Made by a program: the position numbers and the translations under genes
The notes under the pieces: model-generated
Told to the model about the DNA's origin: nothing
The model's input: the letters and a program-made list of their open reading frames with translations, nothing else
Databases searched by the model: none
In this document: positions 410 to 50,772 of the stretch, piece by piece
Layout: each line of letters begins with the position of its first letter
Position numbering within the stretch: position 1 is the stretch's first letter
From: Pseudomonadota bacterium
Lineage (GTDB): Bacteria; Pseudomonadota; Gammaproteobacteria; Burkholderiales; Rhodocyclaceae
DNA: 64,000 nucleotides
Direction of reading: 5' to 3'
Assembly (NCBI GenBank): GCA_026399515.1
Contig: JAPLQT010000115.1
Coordinates: 1-64,000 of the forward strand

Positions 410-856
410 ATGTTCCAGGGAGCGGCAGCGCTGAATCTTGATGCCAAGGGGCGCATGGCGATCCCGGCGCGGCATCGGGACGCGCTGTTGGCATTAGCCG
501 AGGGCCGCCTGGTGATCACCGCTCATCCGCACCGCTGCCTGCTGCTCTACCCCGCCCCGGCCTGGGATCCGATCCGCGCCAAGATCCTCGCCGCGCCCAG
601 TCTCGAAACCCAATCCGCCATGTTGCGCCGCCTGCTGGTCGGCTTCGCCGTCGACTCCGAGATGGATGCCGCCGGGCGCGTGCTGGTGTCTCCCGAGTTG
701 CGGCAATACGCGGCCCTCGAAAAACAGGTCTGGCTGGTGGGACAAGGCAGCCATTTCGAAATCTGGAGCGACGCGGGCTGGCAGCAGCAGCAGCAGGCGA
801 TTTTCGCCTTGGGCGACAAACTCCTGCCGCCCGGCCTGGAGAATTTGACGTTGTGA
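410..856 (+). CDS. mraZ: MraZ, transcriptional regulator of the dcw cluster
   Basis: A 148-residue protein of the MraZ family with two SpoVT/AbrB-type half-domains (about residues 5-50 and 77-120), each with a conserved D-x-K/A-GR turn ([11 protein letters not shown] near the N-terminus, [11 protein letters not shown] in the second half). It forms a ring-like DNA-binding oligomer and represses its own operon. The ATG at 410 is chosen over an in-frame ATG at 356 because it follows a GAGGAGAG ribosome-binding site and gives the standard N-terminus [11 protein letters not shown]; 356 lies inside the operator. Its stop overlaps the rsmH start. Confidence 0.96.
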
Positions 857-40188: not shown

Positions 40189-40307
40189 CGCGGGCCTGGA
40201 ACGACCATGCATATTGCGCTTGAAGAGGATGGCCAAGTCACCGAAATGGTATTATCGCCAAGCATAGTTACAAGTTGCCGATAGCTCCTTGGGACGGCGC
40301 GACTGCC

Positions 40308-41534
40308 ATGAATATCCTGTTCATTCACCAAAACTTTCCCGGCCAGTTCAAGTTTCTTGCGCCAACGCTGGCATCGAACCCTGCCCATACGGTGATCGCC
40401 ATGACCATGCAGAAGGTGAGCGATACCGAATGGCAGGGCGTCAAGCTGGTGCCTTATGCCGCCAGCCGTGGCACTACTCCAAACGTACATCCTTGGGTCG
40501 GCGACTTCGAGACCAAGACGATACGCGGCGAGGCCTGCTTTAGGGCAGCACTACAGTTACGTGAACAAGGTTTCACTCCCGAGGTGATCATCGCCCATCC
40601 GGGTTGGGGTGAAAGCCTGTTTCTGAAGGATGTGTGGCCTAAAGCTAAACTGGGGATATACAGCGAGTTCTACTACCATTCGGAAGGCGCCGACGTTGGT
40701 TTTGATCCGGAGTTTCGGGCGTCGGATCCTGGCGTAGTGTGTCGACTGAGACTGAAGAACCTCAACAACCTGCTGCATTTCGAGATTGCCGATGCAGGAA
40801 TTTCGCCTACCCATTGGCAGGCGTCCACTTTTCCGGAGCCTTTCCGGTCGAAAATCACCGTGGTGCACGACGGCATCGACAGCGCAGCCATAGCCCCCAA
40901 TCCAGATGTCAGCCTGACCTTGGGCGGCAACCTGACCCTTACCCGGCAAGACGAAATCATTACTTTCGTCAATCGTAATCTGGAGCCCTATCGGGGCTAT
41001 CACATTTTCATGCGTGCGCTGCCGAGTATCCTTGCGGCTCGTCCCAATGCGCGGGTATTGATTGTCGGTGCCGATGACGTCAGCTACGGGGCGAGACCGC
41101 CCGAAGGTCGAAGATGGAAGGACGTCTTTCTGGAGGAAGTGAAAGATCGCCTGGATATGAGTCGAGTACACTTCCTGGGTACCGTTCCTTACGCGCACTT
41201 CGTCCCTCTGCTGCAACTATCCACGGTTCACGTCTATTTGACTTACCCTTTCGTGCTCTCATGGAGTCTGCTTGAAGCCATGAGCGTCGGTTGCGCCATA
41301 GTAGCCAGCAATACGCAACCTCTCCGCGAAGCGATTCGTCATGACGATACAGGTCGATTGGTGGATTTTTTCGACGTAAATGGGCTGACGGACCAAGTGT
41401 GCGTGCTCCTTGAAGATCCGCCGGCGAGGGCGCGTCTGGGAGCCAACGCGAGGAGTTTTGCACGAGCGAACTATGACTTGAAGGCAGTATGTTTGCCGAG
41501 GCAATTGGCATGGGTTGAAAAACTCGCCGGATAG
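40308..41534 (+). CDS. GT4-type glycosyltransferase
   Basis: A 408-residue glycosyltransferase with two Rossmann-like domains. The N-terminus NILFIHQNFPGQFKFLAP and the acceptor segment IAHPGWGESLFLKD recall the family whose N-domain is annotated Glyco_trans_4_3. The C-terminal GT1 domain has RNLEPYRGYHIFMRALP, RVHFLGTVPY and the nucleotide-sugar loop PFVLSWSLLEAMSVGCAIVAS. It may modify a surface or secreted polymer; its position ahead of a type I secretion cluster is suggestive only. A TTG at 40275 is an alternative start. Confidence 0.88.
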   Translation: MNILFIHQNFPGQFKFLAPTLASNPAHTVIAMTMQKVSDTEWQGVKLVPYAASRGTTPNVHPWVGDFETKTIRGEACFRAALQLREQGFTPEVIIAHPGWGESLFLKDVWPKAKLGIYSEFYYHSEGADVGFDPEFRASDPGVVCRLRLKNLNNLLHFEIADAGISPTHWQASTFPEPFRSKITVVHDGIDSAAIAPNPDVSLTLGGNLTLTRQDEIITFVNRNLEPYRGYHIFMRALPSILAARPNARVLIVGADDVSYGARPPEGRRWKDVFLEEVKDRLDMSRVHFLGTVPYAHFVPLLQLSTVHVYLTYPFVLSWSLLEAMSVGCAIVASNTQPLREAIRHDDTGRLVDFFDVNGLTDQVCVLLEDPPARARLGANARSFARANYDLKAVCLPRQLAWVEKLAG

Positions 41535-41615: not shown

Positions 41616-41906
41616 ATGTCGGACGATGCAACCAATAAATACTATGCGATGGTCGAACAGGCTTGGGGATTAAGCGAAGGCGCGCGCGACTACGTCAAGG
41701 CCGCCACCGGACGCGAAGTGCCACTACAGGAAATCGTGGACAAGGTTTTCGTACCCAGCGGATTGGTCGATATTGAAAAGACCCAGAAGGAAAGCGGCAA
41801 TCCACCCAAGATCTTCCTGCAATCCCCCTACGGGCTTCAGTATCGTCCCGAGCACAAGGACTGGATTCCTTTCCGGCATGGTCCGGTGTCGTTTACCCAG
41901 CCGTAG
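41616..41906 (+). CDS. small acidic protein of unknown function
   Basis: A 96-residue soluble protein with no signal peptide or membrane segment. The N-terminal half is acidic and helical (EQAWGLSEGARDYVKAAT); the second half is rich in Pro, Tyr and Phe (FLQSPYGLQYRPEHKDWIPF). It has an excellent ribosome-binding site (CAAGGAGG at 41602-41609) and lies alone in a 550-bp gap, suggesting high expression. I do not recognise the family. It could be a secretion substrate of the downstream exporter, but that is a guess. Confidence 0.7.
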   Translation: MSDDATNKYYAMVEQAWGLSEGARDYVKAATGREVPLQEIVDKVFVPSGLVDIEKTQKESGNPPKIFLQSPYGLQYRPEHKDWIPFRHGPVSFTQP

Positions 41907-42066: not shown

Positions 42067-42105
42067 ATTCATATAGGAATTGCTGCTATGCTTTCCTATA
42101 TGAAT
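42067..42105 (+). promoter_or_regulatory. RNA hairpin over the ribosome-binding site of the TnpB-derived gene
   Basis: ATTCATATAGGAA (42067-42079) and TTCCTATATGAAT (42093-42105) are perfect 13-bp inverted repeats around a 13-nt loop. The left arm contains the AGGAA ribosome-binding site, the loop carries the ATG at 42088, and the right arm carries a second in-frame ATG (42100). Folded mRNA would hide the ribosome-binding site. The geometry also resembles subterminal hairpins of IS200/IS605 elements. Confidence 0.7.
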
Positions 42106-42744
42106 TTTTGTCTCAAGGTTCCTCTCAATACAACTGCCGAGCAAACAGCCCGTTTGCAGGATCTGCAAACGGCGTTTGCCGAGGTGTGCAATGCGCTTGC
42201 GCCGGTGGTTCAGCAGACGCGTTGTTGGAACCGCGTCACGTTGCACCACCTGACATACAAAGGCTTACGCGAACGTTTTCCTAAAATCGGCTCGCAAATG
42301 GTGTGCAACGCCATCTATTCGGTCTCCCGGACCTCCCGCTTGGTGTTTCAACTGCCCAATAGCCCTTTCAATATCGCCAAGAATCCGGCGAAGGGTCTCC
42401 CCCTCCTGAAGTTCCTGCCCAATTCTCCGGTGTATTTCGATCGGCATACCTTGAGCCTCAAGGATGGGCAATTATCGATGTATACCCTGGATGGACGTAT
42501 GCGTTTTGACCTCGACTTAAAGCCTGAAGACCGCACGCGTTTTCATCAGGAGAAATTGCGCGAGATCGTGCTGTCGAATACTGGTCAGGGATACCAGCTC
42601 TCATTCTGGTTTTCGTCGCAGGACGAACTAACGGAAACACCAGGTATTTCCGCTGAATCCGTAGCGGAACTTCCGGAATATGTGATTGTGTTGTTGGGAA
42701 ATGATCAGCTCCCGGTGCCAATTGAGGAACTGAAAATTGCCTAA
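42088..42744 (+). CDS. TnpB-derived protein lacking the RuvC nuclease domain
   Basis: A 218-residue protein that resembles the N-terminal half of IS605 OrfB/TnpB. It has the helical part TAEQTARLQDLQTAFAEVCN, then WNRVTLHHLTYKGLRERF and GSQMVCNAIYSVSRT, and the wedge-like strands PVYFDRHTLSLKDGQLS and MYTLDGRMRF. In TnpB the RuvC motif GIDLG should follow; here the chain ends 50 residues later with VIVLLGNDQLPVP and no acidic triad or zinc ribbon. No transposon partner (TnpA) is nearby. It is followed 24 bp later by the exporter genes. I infer a domesticated nucleic-acid-binding protein, perhaps a regulator of the operon. Confidence 0.65.
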   Translation: MLSYMNFCLKVPLNTTAEQTARLQDLQTAFAEVCNALAPVVQQTRCWNRVTLHHLTYKGLRERFPKIGSQMVCNAIYSVSRTSRLVFQLPNSPFNIAKNPAKGLPLLKFLPNSPVYFDRHTLSLKDGQLSMYTLDGRMRFDLDLKPEDRTRFHQEKLREIVLSNTGQGYQLSFWFSSQDELTETPGISAESVAELPEYVIVLLGNDQLPVPIEELKIA

Positions 42745-42768: not shown

Positions 42769-44520
42769 ATGCGAATGAATCCAGCCAATCAAAATTCCGA
42801 ATTGCGTAACGCGCTGTTTGCACTTAAGCCGTTTATCCAGCGCACGATGTTTTTCAGTTTCTTCACTAATATCCTGGTGATGGTACCGACCGTGTATATG
42901 CTGCAAGTGTACGACCGGGTGGTGAATAGCCGCAGCCATATGACTCTGGCCATGCTGACCTTGATGGTGATCGGTTGCTTCGTGCTGATGGAATTACTGG
43001 AATGGGTGCGCACCGGGATCATGCAGCAGGCAGGACTCAAACTCGATGCGCAAATGAGTGAACGTGTTTTCAATGCCGTTTTCGAAGCTAATCTTCGACG
43101 CATCCCCGGGGCAACCAGTCAGGTGTTCGGCGATCTGCGCAGTGTCCGCGACTTTCTTTCCAGTCCTGCCGTGACTGCCATCATGGACGTGCCCCTCGCC
43201 CTGCTCTATATCGTGGTACTGTTCATGATCAACTTGAGCATGGGATTCATGTCATTGCTCGGCGCGCTGGTGTCGGTGGGCCTGGCATATCTAACCGAAC
43301 GCGATACCCAGCCGCCCCTGACCGCAGCCAACCGAGCCGCGATTGCCGCACAGAACTATGCCAATGGCAATCTGCGCAATGCTCAGGTGATCGAAGCCAT
43401 GGGCATGCAAGGCAATATTCACAGCCGCTGGATGAAACGCCAGAAGGAGTTCCTGTTCATGCAGGCCATGGCCTCCGATTATGGCGGCGCCTATTCCGCA
43501 TCCTCCAAGTTCGTGCAAATGGCGCTCGGTTCGCTATTGCTCGGGGCGGGTTGCTGGCTGACCGTGCTGGGGCAATTCCCCGGCGGTGGTGGCATGATGA
43601 TCGTCGCATCGATCATCGGCGGACGCGTCCTGGCGCCGATCGTGCAGTTGATCGCGATGTGGAAACAGGTAGTGAACGCGCGCGATGCCTATAGCCGGCT
43701 GGACAAGTTGCTACAGGCGATACCGGCCAAACAGCCGGGCATGGCATTGCCCCCGCCCAAAGGCATGCTCTCGGTCGAGGGCGTGGTTGCCGGTGCGCCG
43801 GGCTCGTCGGTGGCCATCATTCGCGGCGTGTCGTTCATGGTTCCGGCCGGGCAGGTCGTCGCCATCGTCGGGCCATCGGCCTCGGGCAAATCCACACTGG
43901 CACGCCTGATGGTCGGAGTATGGGCGGCAGGGAATGGCAAGGTGCGGCTTGACGGCGTGGATATCTTTCCCTGGAACAAGACTGAATTGGGGCCGCATAT
44001 CGGTTATCTGCCGCAGGATGTGGAGCTTTTCGATGGCACGCTGGCGGAGAATATTGCCCGCTTCAGCTACGTTGATATGACCAAGGTCGAAGCCGCTGCG
44101 CGCGCAGTGGGCTTGCATGAAACCATACTGGCCTTGCCGCAGGGCTATGAAACAAGCATCGGCGATGATGGCTGCTTCCTGTCGGGGGGGCAGCGCCAGC
44201 GCGTCGGCCTGGCACGCGCCATCTATGGCAATCCGCGTTTCATCGTGCTGGATGAGCCCAACTCCAGCCTCGACGAGGCAGGCGAACAGGCGCTGGTGCA
44301 AACCCTGCTCGCCCTGAAAACCCTCGGGACGACCATCATCGTGATCACCCATCGCACCAGCGTACTAGCGGCGGTGGATCTCATGCTGGTCTTGCACGAC
44401 GGCCTGGTGAAAGCCTATGGGCCGCGCGACGAGGTGCTGGCGGCCTTGCAGCGTGGAGCGCAGGCAGTCGCAACCGCACCTTCTGCCGGGGCGCTGCCGC
44501 CTGCCGCCGCTGCCGCGTAG
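42769..44520 (+). CDS. type I secretion ABC transporter (first of two)
   Basis: A 583-residue permease-ATPase of the PrtD type. The membrane domain (about residues 25-300) is followed by an ABC ATPase with Walker A GPSASGKS (368-375), Q-loop YLPQDVELFDG, signature LSGGQRQR (from 471) and Walker B FIVLDEPNSSLDE, then HRT. It lacks the C39-like N-terminal domain of HlyB. The C-terminus is alanine-rich. It starts 24 bp after the TnpB-derived gene and probably forms the inner-membrane channel with the next ABC protein, HlyD and TolC. Confidence 0.93.
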   Translation: MRMNPANQNSELRNALFALKPFIQRTMFFSFFTNILVMVPTVYMLQVYDRVVNSRSHMTLAMLTLMVIGCFVLMELLEWVRTGIMQQAGLKLDAQMSERVFNAVFEANLRRIPGATSQVFGDLRSVRDFLSSPAVTAIMDVPLALLYIVVLFMINLSMGFMSLLGALVSVGLAYLTERDTQPPLTAANRAAIAAQNYANGNLRNAQVIEAMGMQGNIHSRWMKRQKEFLFMQAMASDYGGAYSASSKFVQMALGSLLLGAGCWLTVLGQFPGGGGMMIVASIIGGRVLAPIVQLIAMWKQVVNARDAYSRLDKLLQAIPAKQPGMALPPPKGMLSVEGVVAGAPGSSVAIIRGVSFMVPAGQVVAIVGPSASGKSTLARLMVGVWAAGNGKVRLDGVDIFPWNKTELGPHIGYLPQDVELFDGTLAENIARFSYVDMTKVEAAARAVGLHETILALPQGYETSIGDDGCFLSGGQRQRVGLARAIYGNPRFIVLDEPNSSLDEAGEQALVQTLLALKTLGTTIIVITHRTSVLAAVDLMLVLHDGLVKAYGPRDEVLAALQRGAQAVATAPSAGALPPAAAAA

Positions 44521-44562: not shown

Positions 44563-46311
44563 ATGAAAAAACCCTCTTTCTTCGAACGCAGCGAGTTGTC
44601 GGCCACACTCTGGTTATTCCGCCGCGAATTCGCCGTCTGCGTGATCTTCACTGTGGTGGTGAACCTCCTGATGCTGACGCCAACCCTCTACATGGTGCAG
44701 GTGTTCGACCGGGTGATGCTGAGTCGTAGCGAGTTCACCCTCGCCGCATTGACCCTGGTGATGCTGTTTTTCTTGTCCGTGATGGCGTTTGCCGAGTGGG
44801 CTCGATCCCGCCTGTTGGTGCGAATCGGGGTCAAGCTGGATGAGCGATTGAACTCTCGGGTTTTCAATGCAAGTTTCGAAGAGCATCTGAACCAGCTCGG
44901 GCGCAACCCCTCGCAAGCTTTTTCGGACCTGACCAATGTGCGCCAGTTCCTGACCGGCCAGGGACTGTTTGCCTTCATGGATGCACCCTGGATACCGATC
45001 TACATGTTCGTGCTCTACATGCTGCACCCCCTGCTGGGCCTGCTCTCGGTCATCTTCTCCTTGCTGCTGATCGGACTTGCCTATCTCAGCCATCGCCTGA
45101 CTCATGCGCCTATCGACAAGGCGCTGGAGGCGGGCATGCAAGTCAATGCCTATGTGCACAGCAAGCTCAAGAACGCCGAGGTGATCGAATCCATGGGCAT
45201 GCTGGACGATTTGCGCCGTCTTTGGCAGGCTAGGCATCAGCGACATCTGGGAGTAACCCATGCCGCACAGGATTTGGCCGGCCGGGCTCAGGCACTCACC
45301 AAATTTCTGCGCTACACGCAGAATTCTCTGACCTTGGGCGCCGGCGCCTTGCTGTTGATCGAGGGCAATCTGAGCAGCACTGGCGCCATGATTGCGGCCA
45401 ACATGCTGATGGGACGCGCCACGGCGCCCATCGACCTGATGGTGTCCACCTGGAAATCAACGCTTGCCGCGCGCCAGGCCTTTTTGCGCCTGGAAGACTT
45501 GTTGACCAAACATCCGCAACGCGATCCCGGCCTGGTGCACGACTCACCCCACGGACATCTGCGTATTGAAAATCTATCCGCCACCGCACCCGGCCGCGCG
45601 CAACCGATTTTGAAGGGACTCAGCGCGGATTTCCCTGCCGGGGAGGTGATTGCCATCATCGGCCCCTCGGGTTCGGGGAAATCAACGTTGGCGCGCGCCC
45701 TGGTCGGCATCTGGCCGTATGTGGAAGGCCGCGTACTGATCGACGGCGAGCCGATCGAGAGTTGGAACCGTGAAGAACTGGGCCCGTTTCTTGGCTATCT
45801 GCCGCAGGATATCGAGCTCTTCGAAGGCACGATTGCCGAGAACATTGCGCGCTTTGGCGTGATCGATCCGGAGAAAGTAATTCTGGCGGCCGGGCGCGCC
45901 GGCGTCCATGACATGGTTCTGCGTTTTCCGCGCGGCTATGACACCTCCATGGGCGAGGCCGGAAACCTGCTTTCGGGCGGGCAGCGTCAGCGCATCGGTC
46001 TGGCGCGCGCGATGTATGGCGATCCCGCCCTGATCGTGCTGGACGAACCCAACTCGAATCTCGACGACGCCGGGGAAGCGGCGCTGGTCAAGGCCGTGCA
46101 AGAGTTGAAACAACAAGGCAAGACGGTCTTCCTGATCACCCATCGGATGAGCATCATCGGCAGCGCGGATCGCATCCTCGTACTCTATGACGGAGTAATT
46201 CAGCGCTATGGACCGCGTCAGGAAGTCATCGACGCCTTGCAGCCCAAGACAGCACCCCAGGGGAACGAAGGCGGCGGAACAGCGCCAACCCCCGCAACGC
46301 AACCCGTTTAA
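44563..46311 (+). CDS. type I secretion ABC transporter (second of two)
   Basis: A 582-residue PrtD-type ABC exporter, homologous to its neighbour: membrane domain to about residue 310, Walker A GPSGSGKST (from 367), YLPQDIELFEG, LLSGGQRQRIGLARAMYGDP and Walker B LIVLDEPNSNLDD. Two adjacent full-length paralogues suggest a heterodimer rather than a homodimer. A TTG at 44536 would add nine residues; ATG 44563 lacks a clear ribosome-binding site, so the start is uncertain. Confidence 0.92.
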   Translation: MKKPSFFERSELSATLWLFRREFAVCVIFTVVVNLLMLTPTLYMVQVFDRVMLSRSEFTLAALTLVMLFFLSVMAFAEWARSRLLVRIGVKLDERLNSRVFNASFEEHLNQLGRNPSQAFSDLTNVRQFLTGQGLFAFMDAPWIPIYMFVLYMLHPLLGLLSVIFSLLLIGLAYLSHRLTHAPIDKALEAGMQVNAYVHSKLKNAEVIESMGMLDDLRRLWQARHQRHLGVTHAAQDLAGRAQALTKFLRYTQNSLTLGAGALLLIEGNLSSTGAMIAANMLMGRATAPIDLMVSTWKSTLAARQAFLRLEDLLTKHPQRDPGLVHDSPHGHLRIENLSATAPGRAQPILKGLSADFPAGEVIAIIGPSGSGKSTLARALVGIWPYVEGRVLIDGEPIESWNREELGPFLGYLPQDIELFEGTIAENIARFGVIDPEKVILAAGRAGVHDMVLRFPRGYDTSMGEAGNLLSGGQRQRIGLARAMYGDPALIVLDEPNSNLDDAGEAALVKAVQELKQQGKTVFLITHRMSIIGSADRILVLYDGVIQRYGPRQEVIDALQPKTAPQGNEGGGTAPTPATQPV

Positions 46312-46333
46312 ACCTTTATTCAGGAATTCGATC

Positions 46334-47689
46334 ATGGCAACCCAGAATTTGTCAGTACCCATCAAGTCAGGTAACGCCCTGGCGCCCGCCCTGGAAGGCG
46401 AATTAATTCTACCCACGGACACTTCCCAGCCGATGCGCCTCGGTTTGTGGGTGCTGGGCCTCGGTTTCGGCGGCTTCCTGTTGTGGGCGAGCCTGGCGCC
46501 GCTGGATGAAGGCGTACCGACGCAAGGCATGGTCACCATCGACACCAAACGCAAAGCCGTGCAACACCTTTCCGGCGGCATCGTCAAGCAGGTCTGGGTC
46601 AAGGAAGGCCAGTTGGTCAAGCAGGGCGATCCGCTGGTCAGTATCGATGATGCCGTATCGCTCGCCAATTATGAGTCCGTGCGCCAGCACTACCTGACGG
46701 TCAGGGCCATGGAAGGACGTTTGCTGGCGGAACAGGGCGCCCAGGGCAAAATCAGTTTTCACCCTGACTTGTTGCAGGCGGCGAGTGATCCATATATCCG
46801 CCAGACCATGAATAATCAGCAGCAGTTGTTCCAGTCCAGGCGTATGGCCTTGCAGGCCGATATGGACGCCATTAAAGAGTCGATCCGGGGCCAGGAAGCT
46901 TCGATCCAGGGCGCTGAAGGCGTGCTCAAGGCTCGCCATAGCCAACTGGAATTCATCCAGGAAGAACTCAAAGGCGTGCGCGATCTGGTCAGGGAAGGCT
47001 ACGCCCCGCGCAACAAACAACTGGAACTGGAGCGCATGGCTGCGGAGGCTATGGGAACCATCGCGGACTTGCAAGGCAACATTTTGCGCGGGCAGCGCGG
47101 CATCGCCGAAATGAAGCTGCGCGCGATTCAGCGCAACCAGGAATATCGAAAGGAAGTTGACACCCAACTCTCCGATGTGCGCCGCGAAGTGCAAGCCGAT
47201 GAGGAGAAATACAAGGCAGCTTCCCAGGAGTTGGGACGCACGGTGATGCGTGCCCCGTCGGAAGGCCAGGTGGTTGGCCTGGCGGTGCAAACGGTAGGTG
47301 CGGTGATTGGTTCCGGGCAAAAGCTGATGGATATCGTGCCGAGAAATGAAGCTCTGCTACTGGAAGCTCGGGTGCCGCCGCATCTGATCGATCAAGTGCG
47401 TATGGGACTGGAAGTCGATGTGCGCTTCTCCTCTTTTGCCCACTCGCCATCACTCGTGGTGCAGGGCAAACTCGAATCGATCTCTTCGGACTTGATAATT
47501 GAGCCACAAGCCGCTTACTACCTGGCGCGTATCTCGATTACCCCGGAAGGAATGAAGGAGCTGGGTAGCCGCCAAATGCAGGCCGGTATGCCGGCCGAGG
47601 TGGTGATCAAGACCGGAGAACGTACCGTGCTCGCCTATCTATTGCATCCGCTGCTGAAACGTATGGCGGCTTCGATGAAAGAGGAGTGA
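46334..47689 (+). CDS. HlyD-family periplasmic adaptor protein
   Basis: A 451-residue membrane fusion protein. A single membrane helix (about residues 36-56, LGLWVLGLGFGGFLLWASLA) is followed by a lipoyl half (KAVQHLSGGIVKQVWVKEG), a long coiled-coil hairpin, then the second lipoyl half (VMRAPSEGQVVGLAVQTVG) and beta barrel. It bridges the ABC exporters to the outer-membrane channel. The ATG at 46334 follows the exporter stop by 22 nt with an AGGAATT ribosome-binding site. Confidence 0.93.
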   Translation: MATQNLSVPIKSGNALAPALEGELILPTDTSQPMRLGLWVLGLGFGGFLLWASLAPLDEGVPTQGMVTIDTKRKAVQHLSGGIVKQVWVKEGQLVKQGDPLVSIDDAVSLANYESVRQHYLTVRAMEGRLLAEQGAQGKISFHPDLLQAASDPYIRQTMNNQQQLFQSRRMALQADMDAIKESIRGQEASIQGAEGVLKARHSQLEFIQEELKGVRDLVREGYAPRNKQLELERMAAEAMGTIADLQGNILRGQRGIAEMKLRAIQRNQEYRKEVDTQLSDVRREVQADEEKYKAASQELGRTVMRAPSEGQVVGLAVQTVGAVIGSGQKLMDIVPRNEALLLEARVPPHLIDQVRMGLEVDVRFSSFAHSPSLVVQGKLESISSDLIIEPQAAYYLARISITPEGMKELGSRQMQAGMPAEVVIKTGERTVLAYLLHPLLKRMAASMKEE

Positions 47690-47692
47690 ACA

Positions 47693-49063
47693 GTGAAACT
47701 GATCATGGTAAAGGGAGGCGCGCAACTGCTTATTTCCCTTGTGAGTGTCACTTTCCTGACGCTGGGAAGCTCGCCTGCCCAAGCGCTGGATCTGCTGAAA
47801 AGTTATCGGCTGGCTCTACAGCAGGATGCCGGCTATCAAGCCTCGCGCGCGGATACGGCCGCAAGCCGCGAACTAGTGCCCCAGGCCCGGGCGCAGTTGC
47901 TGCCGAATCTTTCCGCTAGCCTGTCGCGCGGCAAGAACCAGACGAATAGCGAAACGCCGGGTTTTTTAGGGGCCAGATCGTTCAGCAGCTACGAGTACCT
48001 GAGTTCCAGCAACGCCTTGACCCTGCGCCAACCCGTGTACCGAAAATTCACTTTCGCGCTGTATCAGCAGGCGCAATCCCAGGTCGAGAGTGCAGAGGCG
48101 ACATTGGACAAGAGCCTGCAGGATATGCTGGTGCGCCTGTGCGGCGCGTATTTCGAGGCCCTGATGGCGCAAGATCAACTGGACCTTATCCTTTCGGCAA
48201 AGGAAGCCTATGCCGGCCAACTGCAAGCCACCAAGCGCGTTTTCGAAGCCGGCCAGGGAACGCGGACCGATATCGACGATGCGCAGGCCCGCTACGACAT
48301 GGCACTGGCCCAGGAACTCGAAGCCAGCCAGAATGTGGGATACACCCGCCGCCAGCTACAGGTGATCATCAACCAGCCGGTGGATAGCCTGGCCCTGCTC
48401 AAACCGGATCGCATGCAATTGATCCCGCCCTTGCCCGCCAACCCGGAAGAATGGATCGCCCGCGGTGAAGACGTCAATGCGGAATTGCGCGCCATGCGCG
48501 CCAATATCGAAAGCGCGACCCAGGAAGTGGAGAAAGCCCGCGCCGGGCACATGCCGACAGTCGACCTGCTGGTTCAGCGCAGCCGCAGCATCTCCGAAAA
48601 CCAGGTAACCATCAATCAGTTCTATCTGACATCGCAAGTGGGTTTGCAGGTCAATATCCCGATTTACGCGGGTGGTTACTACAGTTCCCAGATACGCCAG
48701 GCTTTGGCCAACCTGGAAAAATACCAGCAACAGTACGAAGCACGGCGCCGCGAAGTGGATTTGCAGATCCGCAAGGAATTTCAGAACGTCGCCGAAGGCG
48801 TGCTGAAAGTCAGGGCGCAGGAACAGGCCGAGCGCTCATCCGATCAGGCCTTGTTCTCGAACCAGAAGGGCTACCAGGCCGGAACGCGGACCCAGATCGA
48901 CATCCTCAATGCCCAGCAGCAACGCATGAATGTCCGGCGTGACCTGGCGCAAGCACGCTATCTCTACGTGATGGCCCGGGTCCGTTTACAGGGGCTGGTC
49001 GGCTCGCTGAACGAAGATGAGATCAACCTCATAAACAGCTGGTTGTCCGAAGGCGGCGCCTGA
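47693..49063 (+). CDS. TolC-family outer-membrane channel protein
   Basis: A 456-residue OEP-family protein with a signal peptide (about residues 1-27, ending SSPAQA). Two repeated helical hairpin halves follow; FEAGQGTRTDIDDAQARY and the second-half equivalent YQAGTRTQIDILNAQQQR are the paired TolC motifs. It completes a type I secretion system with the preceding three genes. The GTG start lies three bases after the HlyD stop. Confidence 0.92.
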   Translation: MKLIMVKGGAQLLISLVSVTFLTLGSSPAQALDLLKSYRLALQQDAGYQASRADTAASRELVPQARAQLLPNLSASLSRGKNQTNSETPGFLGARSFSSYEYLSSSNALTLRQPVYRKFTFALYQQAQSQVESAEATLDKSLQDMLVRLCGAYFEALMAQDQLDLILSAKEAYAGQLQATKRVFEAGQGTRTDIDDAQARYDMALAQELEASQNVGYTRRQLQVIINQPVDSLALLKPDRMQLIPPLPANPEEWIARGEDVNAELRAMRANIESATQEVEKARAGHMPTVDLLVQRSRSISENQVTINQFYLTSQVGLQVNIPIYAGGYYSSQIRQALANLEKYQQQYEARRREVDLQIRKEFQNVAEGVLKVRAQEQAERSSDQALFSNQKGYQAGTRTQIDILNAQQQRMNVRRDLAQARYLYVMARVRLQGLVGSLNEDEINLINSWLSEGGA

Positions 49064-49103
49064 CACCCACATGGTCGAAATAATTTAGGCTAAAATGCCC
49101 ATT

Positions 49104-49168
49104 CCGAGGAGCGCTGCAAGGCTTTACTGCCCTAGGCTCGGACCGTCAATCTGAACGGCGCTCACCTG
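49104..49168 (+). ncRNA. S-adenosylhomocysteine (SAH) riboswitch
   Basis: CCGAGGAGCGCTGCAA (49104-49119), AGGCTCGG closing the first stem (about 49134-49141), and AACGGCGCTCACC (49154-49166) match the SAH riboswitch consensus. GAGCGC in the first part pairs with GCGCTC in the last to form the pseudoknot. Bound SAH raises expression of downstream recycling genes. It precedes ahcY by 65 nt, with TAAAAT at 49091-49096 as a probable -10 just upstream. Confidence 0.92.
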
Positions 49169-49232
49169 ACCTCGTGCCGGCACGGGATGCGCAGGTGGGC
49201 ATCCTGACCGGCCATACGCAAAGGAGTTCGCT

Positions 49233-50602
<1,370 letters not shown>

Positions 50603-50772
50603 CTTGCATGGTCGTCAGACCACCCCCGTGCCATGAAATTGTTCAAAGACAGGATTTACTCCCCCACCCCCAACCCCCGCCCAGGCGGGGGCTACAAATT
50701 GCTCGCTGCGCTCGTGGGTTACTGTTGCCCGACTTTGGGGTCACGGTACGGGGCGCTTTGTAACTGTATTTC
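50603..50772 (+). repeat. dispersed repeat, copy B
   Basis: Begins right after the ahcY stop and fills the gap to metF. It matches the repeat at 19173-19322 in CAGACCACCCCCGTGCCA, the CCCCCGCC/GGCGGGGG hairpin and CTCGCTGCGCTCGT, and has about 27 additional nt (CTGTTGCCCGACTTTGGGGT region) absent from copy A. The hairpin could attenuate transcription into metF. Confidence 0.8.

Follow-up and report, generated by a model that had tools for sequence, protein, structure and literature searches.

A gene for a protein of about 214 amino acids, related to the N-terminal half of the transposon-encoded nuclease TnpB, lies directly upstream of a type I secretion operon in a Pseudomonadota bacterium of the family Rhodocyclaceae (assembly GCA_026399515.1, contig JAPLQT010000115.1; we call the analyzed stretch, positions 1 to 64,000 of the forward strand, the window). 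We propose, with a probability of roughly 0.6, that this protein, here called half-TnpB, is a domesticated piece of TnpB that serves as a putative autoregulator of the secretion operon, derived from the recognition of the transposon-associated motif (TAM) and probably guide-free. Direct support comes from the homology and fold of the protein, the gene order, the conservation and specificity of an operator at its start codon, the co-occurrence of gene and operator, and the presence of the word TTCAT at the left ends of the parental transposons. The features at the center of this proposal are:

42100 to 42744, plus strand: half-TnpB gene, comprising the wedge (WED) and REC parts of TnpB and free of RuvC (open reading frame (ORF), family alignment and predicted fold)
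42067 to 42105, no strand: whole inverted repeat with perfect 13-bp arms and 13 bp between them (window sequence)
42068 to 42078, plus strand: left arm of the operator, half-site TTCATATAGGA (inverted repeat and family motif)
42094 to 42104, minus strand: right arm of the operator, TTCATATAGGA on the minus strand, overlapping the ATG at 42100 (inverted repeat and family motif)
42084 to 42092, plus strand: probable extended -10 element (TGC TATGCT), located between the two arms (predicted from the sequence of the window)

Both sequence and predicted structure identify the N-terminal WED-REC fold of TnpB in half-TnpB. Full-length TnpBs encoded in related genomes, on a plasmid and in a phage record match it over the N-terminal half at 32-45% identity, and annotated TnpB or transposase genes on plasmids match it at 23-37% identity (best E value 7e-21, tblastn). 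No Pfam, NCBIfam or PHROG family reached its cut-off for the protein, 44 family members compared with Pfam and NCBIfam gave weak matches only, and sequence-only searches of the PDB, using either the protein or its alignment, returned nothing beyond chance matches, so a fold search was needed. All 25 PDB matches that Foldseek reported at E <= 0.001 for the predicted structure (mean predicted local distance difference test score 88) are chains of Cas12f, TnpB or Cas12n, the closest solved folds being the N-terminal parts of Cas12f. Residues 4-182 of the model superpose on residues 2-180 of the ISDra2 TnpB chain in 8exa (Z 11.3, root mean square deviation 4.5, 160 aligned residues).

The end of the protein coincides with the place where RuvC would begin. 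RuvC, with its catalytic acidic residues, is absent: the ORF stops first, at 42744, and the next gene starts 24 bp on, at 42769. The C-terminal zinc ribbon (TNB) is absent as well, since no Pfam match to it was found, whereas full-length relatives match PF07282 and all three full-length TnpBs scanned carry OrfB_IS605 and Cas12f1-like TNB domains above the Pfam cut-offs. The net charge of half-TnpB proteins has a median of 0 over the whole protein and +8 over the first 172 residues, the WED-REC core, against +29 to +42 for whole full-length TnpBs and +13 to +17 in the same half; this near-neutrality is consistent with a loss of RNA binding without proving it. Near residues 194-202, after a variable acidic linker and where the first RuvC strand would begin, a PEYVMV-like motif is conserved, which may be either a remnant or a binding motif.

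The short form is a conserved family. A scan of 84,980 species genomes yielded 240 loci with a relative, and the best 80 were kept for family counts. In 79 of these the ORF is complete, with a stop after 199-227 codons for amino acids, and the remaining one runs off its contig. The ratio of nonsynonymous to synonymous substitution rates (dN/dS) lies between 0 and 0.23 in 12 pairs of relatives. The exporter gene ABC1 follows directly in 78 of the 80 loci, the other two (L072 and L125) ending at contig edges, and in 53 of the 78 it overlaps the half-TnpB gene by 4 bp when starts are taken from the longest ORFs. A pseudogene or decaying insertion is ruled out by dN/dS, length and the conservation of gene order. 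We noted an internal TGA in the half-TnpB of one carrier, G354. The genes downstream of half-TnpB in the window are those of a type I secretion operon, each passing its NCBIfam cut-off:

42769 to 44520, plus strand: ABC1, PrtD-type type I secretion permease/ATPase (TIGR01842)
44563 to 46311, plus strand: ABC2, second PrtD-type permease/ATPase (TIGR01842)
46331 to 47689, plus strand: HlyD-family type I secretion adaptor (TIGR01843)
47693 to 49063, plus strand: TolC-family outer membrane protein (TIGR01844)

Smaller samples agree. When 150 relatives were searched, eight homologues of the same size turned up besides the window's own, at 42-82% identity, each in front of a type I exporter gene, and in an order-wide sample ABC1 follows half-TnpB in all eight carriers other than the window's genome, where the gene is single-copy. 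The short form occurred only in G000 and G319 in a phylum sample of 398 genomes, and viral contigs contained no relative of half-TnpB and two distant matches for full-length TnpB. A class-wide search of 369 genomes for full-length TnpB was empty and, having no positive control, is uninformative. In a tree that combined 55 short forms with 10 TnpB halves, a branch with support 99/96 sets the short forms apart on one side (the program flagged L039, L138 and the Deinococcus TnpB as long rows, and the positions of these three are unsure), and the full-length relatives with RuvC had no adjoining exporter gene where checked. Many related genomes also contain weak matches of about 60 residues to the REC helices (L013-L030; E values 5e-5 to 6e-3), mostly in ORFs of about 85-160 amino acids.

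A preliminary description of the window, made from the sequence alone, had already seen in this gene a half-size TnpB derivative that keeps the wedge and helical parts, lacks RuvC and zinc ribbon, and is tied to a type I secretion operon. It suggested comparing the predicted structure with TnpB and looking for PrtD-type exporters beside homologues, and it named a fold unlike TnpB, or transposon-borne close homologues joined to an active RuvC, as evidence to the contrary. Both comparisons have now been run: the fold is TnpB-like, a PrtD-type exporter gene is the regular neighbor, and the relatives with RuvC fall beyond the supported branch. Its core claim stands; it had missed how broad the family is, as well as the operator and the tie between the operator and the insertion motif of the parental transposons.

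The half-site TTCATATAGGA and an inverted partner are found at the start codon of nearly all relatives, with the right arm covering the start codon and a gap between the arms of mostly 15-17 bp. Three of 81 upstream regions were too short to use; in 68 of the 78 tested, both arms are present with at most two mismatches each. The motif is specific to this position: 143 exact half-sites lie within 150 bp of the start in the 81 loci, compared with none elsewhere in 1,005,673 bases. The complete two-arm pattern occurs once in the window's genome, and a whole-genome search of 11 carriers placed 19 of 20 exact half-sites at the secretion operon, with none in 7 genomes that have no half-TnpB; a reversed control pattern occurred once in these 18 genomes. 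The arrangement varies, some loci having direct rather than inverted repeats and some having extra half-sites upstream. In G223, where the operon begins with TolC, two half-sites precede tolC, and in G184 the half-sites are far upstream. The single stray exact half-site, in G088 (L179, G088:C117, about 479-489, minus strand), is apparently at the start of another gene and is possibly a second regulatory target.

In 75 of the 78 regions the arms enclose a -10-like box, against 18.5 expected from shuffled sequences. A conserved operator over the gene's own promoter is a trait of autoregulatory transcription factors, and half-TnpB has it. Transcription in the window would be expected to start at about 42098-42099, at or just before the ATG, giving an mRNA with little or no leader. 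The preliminary description had begun the gene at 42088; judging from the alignment, 42100 is the more likely start, because the ATG of the relatives aligned with it is conserved and because 42088 falls inside the likely -10 box.

The operator goes with the half-TnpB gene rather than with the exporter. We compared the 27 best ABC1 matches in 101 genomes, with flanks of about 1.5 kb or less. Seven of these loci have half-TnpB upstream, and exact half-sites are present in six and a one-mismatch form in the seventh. The 20 loci without half-TnpB contain no exact half-site, and one of them has a one-mismatch site; the nearest exporter among those without half-TnpB is 66% identical to the window's ABC1.

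The first five bases of the half-site are TTCAT, which we had put down as a possible parental TAM before insertion borders were examined. Near-identical copies in G109 and G236 then gave transposon borders that begin TTCATAGAA after unrelated flanks, and the same left end was found in G182 (three insertions), in G489 and on a Methylomarinovum plasmid (NZ_AP024719). Taken together, four genomes and one plasmid contribute 13 parental insertions, each opening with TTCAT|AGAA behind unrelated flanking sequence, which suggests that the exact border follows TTCAT. The left ends from G182, G489 and the plasmid are less independent than those from G109 and G236, as they were found with the pattern itself and not by comparing copies. 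We left out L040 and L041 (no TTCATA[GA]A found), L144 (masked flank) and L149 (left end missing), as well as the duplicates L150 and L151 (the insertions of L043 and L042) and L044 (same flank as L143). Rejoining the flanks gave an uninterrupted frame at L147, which we take to be DMSO-reductase-like; other joins were open or not, which proves little. An IS200/IS605 element takes as its target the motif 5' of its left end, and this motif is also the TAM. By our estimate, chance alone would put a given 5-mer inside an 11-mer, counting both strands, in about 1.4% of cases. For comparison, the TAM of ISDra2 is given as TTGAT in PMC10097598. The TnpBs of this TTCAT group (G109, G236, G182, G489 and NZ_AP024719) share with half-TnpB the homologous WED-REC half and the TTCAT word. 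They differ in having transposon ends, guide RNAs and, where scanned, RuvC and TNB, and the exporter and the operator were both absent from every one that was checked.

To look for a guide RNA, we built a covariance model from six parental right ends, taken from four genomes and one plasmid. Its best scores were 75-94 bits in five genomes with TnpB, of which only G182 is an independent control because the other four contributed sequences to the model. Twelve carriers gave no good match (best score 29 bits), with the limit that scoring stopped at 150 first-look candidates in most genomes and that a different scaffold would be missed. The best carrier match, in G002, resembles a right end and is followed by TGAAGTGG instead of ATAGGA, and weaker matches of 21-26 bits occurred in G050 and G390. 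Neither the window nor 29 carrier loci showed a transposon context with a right-end guide RNA by this model, in a search that recovered all four TnpB loci included in it. The word ATAGGA, which completes the half-site, occurs 51 times outside the operator in 80 loci, in at most three loci per 300-nt bin. Most likely, the guide RNA has been lost from the half-TnpB system. The preliminary description saw too little space after the gene for a guide RNA, and these searches are in line with that, although one may be encoded elsewhere.

We envisage that half-TnpB arose from the N-terminal half of a TnpB belonging to a transposon group that inserts after TTCAT. It would have kept WED and REC, the part with which TnpB reads its TAM, while RuvC and the zinc ribbon disappeared and, most likely, the guide RNA too. 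Using its TAM-reading face, the protein would bind, alone or paired, the 11-bp half-sites. These usually flank the -10 box of the gene's promoter in inverted orientation, with the inner one over the start codon. Binding across this region is proposed to block RNA polymerase and repress the operon, made up of half-TnpB itself and the PrtD-PrtD-HlyD-TolC exporter, and so to set the level of the exporter. We infer three parts of this scheme: half-TnpB as the operator binder, RNA-free binding, and repression as the effect.

Several observations weigh against the scheme. An exact half-site near the start is missing from five of 81 loci; in G228 no half-site was found within the 3.6 kb examined, and G041 and G354 have half-sites only as one-mismatch forms. 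The order-wide sample of 399 genomes contains only 9 carriers, including the window's genome, and some of the 80 loci repeat other sampled loci or are near-identical (for example L079/L084 and L089/L090). TnpB reads only about 5 bp as duplex, so the reading of 11 bp by protein alone would need contacts that are not known from TnpB. In the alignment with ISDra2, only the two WED residues that contact the TAM are placed consistently (T123/N124 on D118/R119), and the pairing of the REC residues changes from one of two MAFFT settings to the other; because only the WED pair is stable between settings, we do not claim that all TAM contacts are kept. A Deinococcus TnpB chosen to supply the ISDra2 sequence proved different from the 8exa chain.

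Among other explanations, half-TnpB might still be RNA-guided, a scaffold unlike the parental one being encoded elsewhere and pairing with the ATAGGA beside a TTCAT TAM, in the manner of a TldR that lacks RuvC. In form, the half-site is a TAM plus adjacent sequence in the orientation of a TnpB target, the WED-REC core has stayed basic, and direct-repeat half-sites imply that single molecules may bind. We nevertheless think this unlikely, given the failure of the parental model, which would miss a new scaffold, to find a good match in the 12 carriers and 29 carrier loci searched, the lack of positional conservation of ATAGGA away from the operator, a matching stretch of only 6 nt, and the loss of RuvC, a domain through which TnpB in part holds its RNA and the heteroduplex. 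Slightly less likely again is that another transcription factor reads the operator while half-TnpB acts, for example, as an accessory protein of the exporter or as a substrate adaptor through its PEYVMV-like motif. This would account for an otherwise unexplained conserved C-terminal motif after the acidic variable linker, and translational coupling with ABC1 through the 4-bp overlap would suit an exporter subunit. Since the operator tracks the half-TnpB gene and not the exporter, and is absent from the 7 non-carriers, such a second factor would have to travel with the gene, and the match of TTCAT to the parental insertion motif would be a coincidence.

Half-TnpB could instead bind the operator and activate the operon, or set its level by signal-dependent feedback. 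The left arm lies near the -35 region in many loci, and the extra upstream half-sites would fit, but with an arm on each side of the -10 box and the expected transcription start covered, the layout is the usual one of a repressor site, and we consider this quite improbable. The perfect 13-bp arms around the window's start codon also allow an RNA hairpin that hides the start codon, in place of a DNA-binding site. We give this very little credence: with the -10 box between the arms, the left arm would not be transcribed from that promoter, several loci have direct repeats, and the sites of G223 and G184 are far upstream, those of G223 in front of tolC. A hairpin hiding the ribosome-binding site had been our first idea for the repeat and was dropped on account of the -10 box and the direct repeats.

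Half-TnpB can be set beside several known systems. TetR/LacI-type autoregulated repressors have a palindromic operator over the promoter of their own gene, the layout seen here; they have another fold, and no known repressor family matched half-TnpB in profile scans. TldR proteins, according to PMC13418256, retain RuvC in inactivated form and work with a guide RNA. Half-TnpB resembles them in its descent from TnpB, in that nuclease activity is not expected, in a stable link with a non-transposon host operon, and in the transcriptional control proposed for it; it differs in having no RuvC at all, a contrast the preliminary description had drawn, and in that no guide RNA of parental type was found in 12 carriers, where a different scaffold would have been missed. 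Half-TnpB is neither a TnpB, having no RuvC and no transposon, nor a TldR. Cas12m is described as silencing by binding without cutting; Cas12f and Cas12m differ from half-TnpB as full-length RNA-guided effectors with a RuvC domain. Our literature search found no account of the half-TnpB family, though a mention within the main TldR or TnpB classification work is possible.

Several neighboring features stand apart from this argument. A 1912-amino-acid protein beside the operon at L108 (1144-6879, minus strand), with calpain, Calx-beta, RCC1 and DUF4214 domains, is a candidate secreted substrate of the exporter. Upstream of the operon in the window lie a family-4 glycosyltransferase gene (40275-41534), with homologues on either side in 10 of the 80 related loci, and, between it and the operator, a 96-amino-acid ORF (41616-41906) with no family match in the profile libraries. 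Downstream, an S-adenosylhomocysteine riboswitch (49100-49170) sits just upstream of a frame at 49233-50650 that is presumably adenosylhomocysteinase-like. Near 50010 this frame is interrupted, and the coding sequence continues in a different frame after a loss of about 20 residues from the NAD-binding loop, owing to either an assembly error or a real deletion.

To our knowledge, known domesticated TnpBs keep a dead RuvC and a guide RNA. We put at about even odds the broader conclusion that a lineage of RNA-guided nucleases has here given rise to a guide-free transcription factor, in which the TAM-reading half was kept, the TAM became the operator core, and a type I secretion operon came under control across many betaproteobacteria. 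A conserved family that has neither RuvC nor guide RNA and whose operator has the parental TAM as its core would show how an RNA-guided nuclease can turn into an ordinary sequence-specific regulator; if true, this would add a new fold to bacterial repressors and reveal a route from programmable to fixed DNA recognition. Half-TnpB allows a direct test of whether the WED-REC half reads DNA without RNA, offers a compact TAM-reading module, and gives a proposed function to a family that is unnamed in the profile libraries scanned.
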